DNA from: Chondrosia reniformis
Taxonomy: Eukaryota; Porifera; Demospongiae; Chondrillida; Chondrillidae
Direction: 5' to 3'
Assembly: GCA_947172415.1 (NCBI GenBank)
Contig: OX359198.1
Location: forward strand, 1,581,401 to 1,645,400
Length of the DNA: 64,000 bases
Part shown: positions 9,057-15,070 of the stretch, piece after piece
How positions within the stretch are numbered: the first letter of the stretch is position 1
Layout of the letters: every line of letters starts with the position of its first letter
The notes under the pieces: generated by a model
The model's database searches: none
What the model was told of the DNA's origin: nothing
The model's input: only the letters and a program-made list of their open reading frames with translations
Made by a program: the position numbers and the translations under genes

Positions 9057-12000
9057 ATGGCTGCCAAACGACAATTCGAAGGTCTTCTACTAGAAGGGAT
9101 ACGTCCAACTGGCAAAGAATTGGGTCGCGGATCTTACGGAGAAGTTGTTGAGGTCGATTGGTGCAATACGCTTTGTGCTGCCAAACAGCTACACGACATT
9201 TTCCTCCGTACCCTCTCACAAGTTGAATTGAATAAACTAATGAATGATTTTGAAAAAGAATGTTTAACTTGGTCCCGTTTGCGACATCCAAACGTTGTTC
9301 AGTTTCTGGGAGTATTTTTTCGACCCAAAATTAGCGTACCCGTTTTTGTTTTGGAGAAGATGGATACGTCTCTCCGTCATTACCTGGAAGCCAATAGTAA
9401 GGAAAAATTCTTTCTGCCCGATAAAGTTTCCGTACTTCGCCAGGTAGCTCAAGGATTATGCTATCTTCATCAACAGAATCCGATTCTAGTCCATCACGAC
9501 TTGACGCCAAATAATATCTTGCTGAACGAATATACGTACCAAACGAAATTGACGGATTTCGGGATGACCCGTGCGGTTGACCTGTCTAAGCTTACTCGCC
9601 AATCCTCAGCTAAAGGCACAAATGTGTTCATGCCCCCAGAAGCCTTACAGAAGCCGCCGCGGTACACCGACAAATTGGATATCTTCTCCTTTGGCAACTG
9701 CGTTTTGGCAACACTTACACATCAATGGCCAGATCCCTCTCATCCTACCATTCTGAAGAAAGGAAATCTAGTGGCACTGAGTGAATATGAAAGAAGGGAA
9801 CACCAGATAAAGCTGATGGATAAGGAGAAAGTACTCTTTTTGGGTCTCATCAAGAGATGTTTAGAGAATGATGAGACTCTGCGTCCAAGCAGTGCTGACC
9901 TTACCACAGAAGTAAGGCAGATTCAGGCAAGTGTTAAGAAAGGGGGGGATAATTTAATGAGCACCTTTAAAAAGTCAGTAAGCCAACTGCAAATCGCCAA
10001 GCATGAAAATGCACAGCACATCAAGGCTGCCATTCAATTAAAGAAGGAAATTGCAGATCTTGCTGAAGATAAAGCTCGGCAGCAGAGAGAAATATCTACT
10101 TTGGCTGAAGATAAAGCTTGGCAGCAGAGAGTAATATCTAGCTTGGCTGAAGATAAAGCTCGGCAGCAGAGAGAAAAATCTAGCTTGGCTGAAGATAAAG
10201 CTCGGCTGCAGAGAGAAAAATCTAGCTTGGCTGAAGATAAAGCTCGGCTGCAGAGAGAAAAAACTACTTTGGCCAAAGATAAAGCTCAGCTGCAGAAACA
10301 AAAATGTAGCTTGGCTGAAGGGAAGGCTCGGCTAGAGAGATATAATGCTGTATTAAGGCCATTACTACAAAAGTTACAACCTGATACTCAGACGCAGTTA
10401 GATGAAGTTCATCCCTTGCTTGAAAAAAGAAAGCTTCAAAAAGGAGAGATTTGGTATGTTATAAATATGACAACACAGGTAAACCATGTTTACATAGATT
10501 ATGCATTTTTAACGTTTGTTTCCATTGTCTGAATTTTTGGAGGTCCGCTAAAACAGGTTCACTAACTTTTCAAGCATGAAAATATAACATATGTATATAC
10601 ATGAAGTCAATGAAATGGTCTCCATGACTAGTTTGGAAACATGCAGCTGCATTAACCATGATAGTATGTAGGTAATTATACGTATATAGGAGGATGGAGT
10701 AGGTGAAGTTGGAATGTTAGTAACATGTATAAATTGAGAGTGGAAAAAGGTAAAAAAAGAAAAAGATAAGACTTACATGTATGCAGTCATTCTATAAAGC
10801 CAGATTCCTTTTCCCTTTTTCTCAACTTTATTTTATTGTGTGTCTCTCATGATCCACTTCACCAATTCATCTTTATATTCAATCACCAACTGTCATCAGT
10901 TGGATCATGCAGCATCTATAGTCAATCAGCTGATGATACACAACTTCTGAGCAGAAATTTTCTACTTTAATGTCAAAATATCTATTTAATGTGGCAGTTG
11001 AAAAATGTTAGTCTAGTGGCTTATTATTATTATATACTTTAGAGTGATCTCATACGTGTGTTCCTTTGTACATGTCGTAGGTATTTGGTGGACGTGCGAT
11101 GGATGAAGCAGTGGAAGAAGTATGTTGGTTTTGATACTTGGGATAGAAGTGAGGTTGGAGAGGAGTCAGCTAATCCTGGTCCCATTGATAATAGCAACCT
11201 CATACCCAGCAGTAAGTTTGCAAAATTGTCTCTCTCCTAAATGACACTGTAATTTTAACTAGTGCTGTGAAGTATCCAATATATTGGAGCTATATTCGGT
11301 AATATCACTCCATCTTTGTATATCATGCTTGGTGGTAAATTATCGAGATATTGGTACACGGCAAATATCACAAATACTGACTACAGTATACGTACAGTGA
11401 GACCTCACCTCTTCAGATTTACGGCTTTAAGACTGTGAACAAACGTCCAGTGACATGAGTGGATCAGAAAGGAAGTGGCGTCTACATAAAGATGCACCTG
11501 TACTAACTTACCATTGCCACCATTTAATTCCAGTGACAGGTCAACTTTAAGTGTACACATGATTTGATTAAAGTGGCTGCCGGAAGTAATTCATCAATGA
11601 CTCACCTGGTTCTTTAATTTATTCAAAATCCTGTGATATTTAGTCATATTGTCATGTTCCAAAGGGATAGTAACGTAGTTACACTGTTAATTGTCAATAT
11701 CGCCCAGCACTAATTTTATATATTTTGGCTCAATTCAAATTCTTTATCACTGCATATAGCTGAAACTGTGATAGACCTATCTGGCATTTTTTTCAATTAA
11801 TCCTTAAACTGGATTGCACCCACTGGCAAATATCATGTTTCTGTAACATCCTTATGATATGGTAATATACATAGTTAGGTGTTACTACATACTTTAATGA
11901 TCTTCATGGCATGCTTAGGTGATTAGATCAACGTCTTCTATTCATTATTTGTTATTGTTATTAGAGATAAATATTATTTCTGAATATACGTAGATGAAGA

Positions 12001-15000: not shown

Positions 15001-15070
15001 AACTGACCACATGTACAGGATCTCTGTATATATTCATTCATTTCTGTGGCAGTTGTACGTAACTCTATAG
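9057..15070 (+). CDS. protein kinase-coiled coil-DUSP-UBL fusion protein, copy A
   Basis: Exons 9057-10453, 11081-11211, 11994-12160, 12653-12746, 13527-13628, 13776-13885 and 14912-15070 join in frame to about 719 residues. Residues 20-290 form a TKL/RIPK-like kinase domain: P-loop GRGSYGEV (23-30), AAK lysine K43, HHDLTPNN with catalytic D148, DFG aspartate D167 and MPPEAL. All catalytic positions are present, so activity is plausible. Residues 300-460 are coiled coil, including seven 14-residue repeats ([13 protein letters not shown] type, 335-432). From residue 466 the sequence becomes a DUSP domain as in USP4/11/15 ([27 protein letters not shown]), followed by a UBL (about 566-667: [31 protein letters not shown]). 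No ubiquitin peptidase follows. The last exon has a Ser/Gly-rich sequence like a USP linker and either stops at 15070 or splices at 14990. DUSP-UBL modules mediate interactions in deubiquitinases; a scaffold or substrate-binding role here is inferred. Confidence 0.85.
10059..10352 (+). repeat. seven in-frame 42-bp coding repeats (coiled coil)
   Basis: Each unit encodes 14 residues of the form (S/T)LAEDKARxQREK, which is exactly two heptads, inside exon 1 of kinase copy A. Kinase copy B has an unrelated, non-repetitive coiled coil at this place. Confidence 0.92.
12252..12366. repeat. about 24-bp minisatellite, five copies
   Basis: The unit CCCCACCCCCTTGGAAATAT plus a short tail is repeated directly after the donor-side sequence of kinase A exon 3, within the intron. 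One strand is C-rich. Confidence 0.9.
14035..14690. mobile_element. Penelope-like retroelement remnant with internal inversion
   Basis: On the minus strand 14228-14040 reads as the end of a reverse transcriptase ([30 protein letters not shown]). On the plus strand from about 14245 it reads as the C-terminal part of a GIY-YIG-type endonuclease ([20 protein letters not shown], then [14 protein letters not shown]). The two halves of one element therefore lie head to head. The 3' part ends with a hairpin-containing sequence (GGTCAG...CTGACCGAAACG at about 14610) and a T-rich tail. It sits in an intron of kinase A. Both frames are truncated, so it is inactive. Confidence 0.75.

Follow-up and report, generated by a model that had tools for sequence, protein, structure and literature searches.

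Probable fusion of a TKL-like kinase exon with the copied DUSP-UBL half of a resident USP4/11/15-type gene in the sponge Chondrosia reniformis

Our analysis of a 64,000-nt stretch of DNA (contig OX359198.1, positions 1,581,401-1,645,400; hereafter the window) points to a gene, F1, in which an exon coding for a protein kinase was probably fused to a copy of the 5' half of a resident USP gene, so that the acquired DUSP-UBL module would dock the kinase on this USP or on its partners. F1 is most likely one working gene, as judged from its sequence. Its architecture is real and unusual; it falls under known domain shuffling and represents no new kind of system. Kinase and deubiquitinase pathways usually meet via separate proteins. 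No description of a kinase-DUSP-UBL architecture was found in the open-licence literature, and the accessible part of PMC4624187 covers neither exon phases nor fusions of kinases. The genome searched comprises 117,379,552 bases in 15 contigs, and the QV of 69.8 given for the primary haplotype in the available text of PMC12181767 means that single-base errors are expected to be rare.

Joining of six exons, from 9057-10453 to 13776-13885, produced one 667-aa frame without a stop, with GT donors throughout and AG acceptors from exon 2 onward. The unbroken exon chain of kinase, coiled coil, DUSP and UBL proposed in a preliminary description of this DNA was thereby borne out, as was the junction codon at 10453/11081, which reads TG/G and codes for Trp. 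That description had also suggested searching the joined protein with the DUSP and UBL profiles, and both matched (DUSP, PF06337, 6.8e-21, residues 463-555; Ubiquitin_3, PF14836, 3.6e-15, residues 577-659), in addition to PK_Tyr_Ser-Thr (PF07714, 1.5e-34, residues 19-284). The three kinase residues it named, K43, D148 and D167, were all correct on a residue check, and the glycine loop and the DFG motif are present as well. The nearest solved chains by sequence are CTR1 and then B-raf, and assignment of the F1 kinase to the TKL group is tentative. The catalytic loop of F1 reads HHDLTPNN. Many kinases carry K two residues after the catalytic Asp, where F1 has T, and in view of these unusual loop residues (HHD, T) the activity of the F1 kinase is not assured. 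The linker between kinase and DUSP contains 7 repeat matches in F1 vs 19 in the related database protein P0001. The coordinates of all features are collected in the table.

Table. Features of the F1 locus and of the parent USP gene, in positions of the window (the parent lies beyond its end)
Feature	Position	Strand	Basis or remark
F1 exon 1 (kinase, coiled coil, first DUSP residues)	9057..10453	+	exon joining, Pfam; end TG/gtatgt
F1 TKL-like kinase domain	9111..9908	+	residues 19-284; K43, HHD 146-148, DFG 167-169
42-bp minisatellite, 6.6 copies, coding for the repeated coiled-coil linker	10062..10340	+	TRF
USP-derived piece, DUSP start	10380..10453	+	from resident USP exon 1
F1 exon 2, first half of DUSP	11081..11211	+	97.7% identical to parent USP exon
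F1 exon 3, second half of DUSP	11994..12160	+	97.6% to parent USP
F1 exon 4, UBL	12653..12746	+	93.6% to parent USP
F1 exon 5, UBL	13527..13628	+	97.1% to parent USP
F1 exon 6, UBL end	13776..13885	+	96.4% to parent USP; common to all four 3' ends
Copy of parent linker exon with acceptor and donor, candidate F1 exon	14912..14990	+	within parent-like stretch 14730-15242, 93.5%
Second copy of UBL end (..GTRVITNKDL stop)	15261..15377	+	unit 3 matches both this copy and the stretch that follows
Relic of the parent's first peptidase (UCH) exon	15428..15463	+	in-frame stop, Cys box lost; 91.7% over 36 bp
Unit 2 kinase, first 222 residues	23696..24361	+	97% identical to F1
Unit 2 kinase C-lobe and different coiled coil, second frame	24364..25230	+	ends at phase-0 donor
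Unit 2 first DUSP-UBL	25308..27166	+	GT-AG, one frame
Unit 2 first module exons	25308-25441, 25624-25730, 26040-26218, 26352-26445, 26561-26662, 27066-27166	+	
Unit 2 second DUSP-UBL	27714..29012 (stop)	+	GT-AG
Unit 2 second module exons	27714-27862, 27936-28033, 28356-28516, 28583-28676, 28746-28844, 28924-29012	+	
Unit 3 remnant: UBL exons and same peptidase relic (36720-36755)	35218..36755	+	sequence match
Parent USP gene	85513 (exon 1) to 71.5 kb or lower (last peptidase match)	minus	first six exons joined; 3 separate UCH matches

Among solved chains, the DUSP-UBL half of F1 matched USP15 and USP4 best (E ~1e-66) and USP11 more weakly (~1e-30). Its earlier assignment to a USP4/11/15-type enzyme is well supported at the sequence level, and a donor gene was found nearby. 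This donor is a USP4/11/15-type gene of the sponge itself, located outside the window on the opposite strand, 58-76 kb from F1. The DUSP-UBL modules of F1 and this parent are 95% identical over 223 columns; exons 2-6 alone range from 93.6 to 97.7%, the stretch over exon 2 reaches 98%, and further pieces up to 15242 match at 77-94%. Exon 1 of the parent ends in a phase-2 donor, the same as the F1 kinase exon, and positions 10380-10467 of F1 match that parent exon and its splice donor at 75% DNA identity. Since the kinase exon already contains the beginning of the DUSP and the old splice donor of the parent, the fusion is recorded within the exon itself, and DUSP exons that initiated on their own would be without the first strand of the domain. 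The preliminary description had attributed the arrangement to exon shuffling. This is a poor fit, as the USP homology begins inside coding exon 1 (~10380) and passes through the old donor, indicating a break in the exon and an inherited intron.

Behind 13885 four ends of the gene are possible, giving proteins of 682, 698, 719 and 720 aa with the whole UBL in each. The terminal exon running to 15070, as first described, stands as one candidate of the four; it was not confirmed, with a GTGAGT donor behind 14990 and three competing ends. Further downstream the relic of the first peptidase exon lies in a wider stretch (15378-15463) that is 76% identical to the parent, so the copied stretch extended at least to that exon. 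A peptidase still attached to F1 was ruled out: the 57 UCH matches listed genome-wide all fall outside the window, in which only the broken relic was found. Taken together, F1 most likely arose when a 5' half of the resident USP gene, beginning inside exon 1 and reaching the first peptidase exon or beyond, was copied to a place behind a TKL-like kinase exon that has no introns; the peptidase part would have decayed afterwards. Between two matching pieces, 14056-14729 comprises 674 bases in F1 vs 180 in the parent. It gives the impression of a decayed mobile-element ORF; a Pfam search of 14122-14547 returned no match.

Two further units follow F1 in the window. The tandem DUSP-UBL unit 2, the peptidase relic and the relatives in other assemblies go beyond the preliminary description. 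The frame of the unit 2 kinase is broken near 24357, F1 having 2 bases fewer at this point, and the joined product of unit 2, with twelve DUSP-UBL exons, contains two DUSP and two UBL stretches by Pfam. The acceptor at 26040 is weak, and the next AG leads to an immediate stop. In unit 2 the DUSP start is found on a separate exon outside the kinase exon, and the join thus differs from that of F1. No F1 kinase or DUSP matches occur between 28.8 and 35.2 kb. The frameshifted kinase of unit 2 and the remnant character of unit 3 indicate that the locus is decaying too. Starts of an inorganic-pyrophosphatase-like gene are located behind the units in three tandem copies (15566-17733, 29351-30790 and 36868-38325); two joined exon readings of these copies matched PF00719 at E 5e-4, under the family cut-off. 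Genome-wide, DUSP matches were obtained at 7 places: F1, unit 2 and the parent account for two exons apiece, and the seventh place is on C5. The Ubiquitin_3 profile gave zero matches anywhere in the genome, which is no evidence of absence, as the UBL is split over exons. The lone DUSP match away from the locus (C5:5537699; L006, L042) has peptidase matches 16-23 kb off on the same strand and is probably a second DUSP-bearing USP.

The proposed role of F1 follows from its second half. The motif KVEVY is kept at 565-569, at the DUSP/UBL boundary, and probably corresponds to E134/Y136 of human USP4. In the accessible text of PMC4243247, the exchanges E134A and Y136A of USP4 affect the DUSP/Ubl interface and lower activity, and the DUSP-Ubl binds an insert in the catalytic part and increases turnover, also when supplied in trans as an isolated module. 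RIG-I, Rheb and BRAP are among the partners named for the USP4 DUSP or DUSP-UBL in the available part of PMC7935551, and SART3 is described there as a ligand of the linker that joins the two domains; for most of the substrates listed in it, however, the binding site is the catalytic domain, and only few are assigned to the DUSP-UBL. The F1 module differs little from its counterpart in the resident USP, which, along with the action of USP4 DUSP-Ubl in trans, favours docking on the USP or its partners. By this analogy, the DUSP-UBL probably serves F1 as a docking and regulatory module that tethers it to this USP or to proteins bound by the USP; the suggestion of the preliminary description that the kinase may read the same partners is likewise tentative. 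The fusion would bring the kinase, via a coiled coil of variable length, to these proteins, where it could phosphorylate the resident USP or its partners or compete with the USP for partners. The same 95% identity and activity in trans (PMC4243247), along with the HHDLTPNN loop, would also suit a module that regulates the resident USP as a decoy or in a dominant-negative manner, next to a kinase that is catalytically weak or irrelevant. We consider this rather unlikely, as F1 keeps K43, D148, D167 and the glycine loop, and the N-terminal part of the kinase shows a dN/dS of 0.15 between units 1 and 2 over 222 codons, although only 17 changes were counted.

Comparison of the F1 and parent modules over 225 codons gave a dS of 0.19, a dN of 0.028 and a dN/dS of 0.144, falling to 0.084 for the last 200 codons. 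From these values the DUSP-UBL module of F1 looks constrained, though gene conversion may help. Conversion between F1 and its parent is likely; it weakens the dN/dS argument and could preserve an intact-looking F1 without selection. Units 1 and 2 are 93-95% identical across their upstream regions and the N-terminal part of the kinase (8500-9902 vs 22119-24546) and far apart behind it, which points to gene conversion. F1 might accordingly be read as a fused yet non-functional young duplication, held intact by conversion with the parent USP. The mosaic of identities is typical of conversion (98% in the exon 2 stretch, up to 94% in intron-bearing pieces, 75% in the exon 1 piece), and the peptidase relic and the frameshift in unit 2 agree with loss of function. 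Nonetheless this reading is quite unlikely given the low dN/dS and the rarity with which the parent module stayed stop-free under simulated, substitution-only neutral drift (1.6% of 500 at 0.1 per site, 0.2% at 0.2, and 0/500 both at 0.3 and at 0.5). Moreover, the two diverged DUSP-UBLs of unit 2 are both still open although their silent distances approach or exceed saturation, and other assemblies retain kinase exons that likewise end in the DUSP start. Weakest of all and highly unlikely is the reading of the locus as two products, a 491-aa kinase exon ending in a retained intron and an unexpressed DUSP-UBL fragment, for although the kinase exon is open to a stop at 10530-10532 in intron 1 (the database ORF P0002 is that reading, merely an ORF call), it terminates in DUSP residues and the parental donor, an end recurring in P0001, P0021 and P0242-P0245, no AATAAA or ATTAAA occurs between 10453 and 11081, and dN/dS is low on the supposedly unexpressed module.

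A fusion of one kinase exon with the copied USP half thus best describes F1, and relatives of it were revealed in other assemblies. The preliminary description had proposed a search for co-occurrence of kinase and DUSP in sponge proteins. Among the best 120 of 440 matches to the whole fusion, P0241 of Amphimedon queenslandica, a sponge of a different demosponge subclass, has kinase, DUSP and UBL in one record (UniRef, 785 aa); its layout, DUSP-UBL-kinase-half DUSP-UBL-kinase start-phosphatase piece, apparently reflects an automatic model across several neighbouring genes. The domains therefore adjoin in Amphimedon, and their order is not established by this record. None of the best 120 of 695 matches to the DUSP-UBL carries a kinase domain family. 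The other kinase search covered the best 120 of 1198 matches, and the number of candidates was capped. A motif scan of 141 kinase proteins detected the DUSP-start tail in 7, which are P0001, P0002 (F1 itself), P0021 and P0242-P0245. A profile built from 70 different USP N-terminal 24-mers and run on 171 kinase ORFs gave E<1e-3 for 6 of them: P0241, P0001, P0245, P0243 and F1 twice (P0002 = L008). P0041 came next at 0.04, P0021 had 1.6, and P0242 and P0244 were outside the 25 best; P0021, P0242 and P0244 thus carry the tail by motif, yet do not reach E<1e-3 with the profile. In P0001 the frame is kept up to the donor Trp and the readings diverge a few residues later. This assembly has no gene for P0001, F1 and unit 2 being its only matches above 69% identity; P0001 may represent the alternate haplotype or another specimen. 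The kinase of P0242 has no near-identical match in this genome (at most 59% among long matches, 62% over a 155-residue piece), indicating that it comes from another organism.

The kinase trees were built from hand-picked proteins; L020, L029 and L030 were left out of both, as the cutting motif was not found in them, and L036, L037 and the minus-strand kinase of the window were additionally left out of the second. F1, unit 2 and P0001 were placed among this sponge's own kinases and P0021/P0242-P0245 in another clade. A single clade for F1, unit 2, P0001, P0021 and P0242-P0245 was rejected (AU p 0.0007; 0.009 with L035 added), for groups chosen after an earlier kinase tree had been viewed. In the DUSP-UBL tree of 17 proteins (16 USP records and P0241), to which this sponge's modules were added, this sponge's four modules were placed on one side (89/100, not starred), and those of Amphimedon, two in number, grouped together (96/90). 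A single clade for all fusion DUSP-UBL modules was rejected (p 0.0006). Without F1, that is for unit 2 and Amphimedon, the same test gave no rejection (p 0.051), with two long branches meeting. The F1 module was probably converted by the parent. Tentatively, one promiscuous sponge kinase family might have captured the resident USP DUSP-UBL repeatedly, resulting in recurrent kinases that dock on a deubiquitinase or its partners, a scenario we find possible and somewhat doubtful. One old fusion reshaped by gene conversion fits the trees too.

The kinase family itself is large in this sponge. The 39 best matches to the F1 kinase in this genome are 41-100% identical to it. DUSP matches being confined to this locus and the one place on C5, just 2 of these 39 have DUSP exons. 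Scanning of 30 family ORFs, F1 and unit 2 included, for the catalytic-loop motif revealed HHD in 26, HRD in L015, HSD in L036 and no match in 2. In nine further family ORFs, picked mostly for length or odd tails, we observed NHL in four, ankyrin in one, the start of a Ras-like GTPase in two and nothing above the cut-off in two; the DUSP-UBL is thus one among several modules on this kinase family. Kinase and NHL repeats share a single open frame in L011, L013, L016 and L017. In L029 and L030 (C7:7665875-7670951, minus) the kinase exon runs into a Ras/Rab-like GTPase start, with PF00071 just over the cut-off; here, too, a kinase exon seems to be fused with the 5' portion of a different gene. Within the window, a kinase of the same family is encoded on the minus strand at 57153-58325; it is 46% identical to F1, and its loop reads YRSLTPNN. 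The catalytic Asp is apparently replaced by Ser, making it probably a pseudokinase, and the genome-wide DUSP search gave no match near it.

A natural kinase on the regulatory half of a deubiquitinase makes recruitment of a kinase through DUSP-UBL to USP4/11/15 and their partners testable. The join in F1 and the related kinases elsewhere with the same join suggest a kinase that uses the docking surface of a deubiquitinase. F1 also illustrates how a sponge kinase family may gain a C-terminal module, with donor, breakpoint and decayed remainder in one genome. The modules gained are DUSP-UBL here and NHL, ankyrin and a Ras-like GTPase start in relatives.

With USP4, USP11 and USP15, F1 shares the order of DUSP and UBL, and its exon phases 2-1-0-1-1 are those of the resident USP. 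It differs from these enzymes in having a kinase in place of their N-terminus and in that no peptidase was found beyond the first-exon relic. Kinases of the TKL group such as CTR1 and B-raf have the glycine loop, the Lys, the catalytic Asp and DFG in common with F1, whereas F1 belongs to a large sponge kinase set with HHD loops and has a long coiled coil. P0241 of Amphimedon resembles F1 in that its annotation unites a kinase with DUSP and UBL, and its kinase is 42% identical to that of F1 over 211 residues. A likeness in the join itself is offered by P0001 and P0021/P0242-P0245 from ENA assemblies, in which kinase and coiled coil end, as in F1, in the DUSP start with Trp at the donor.
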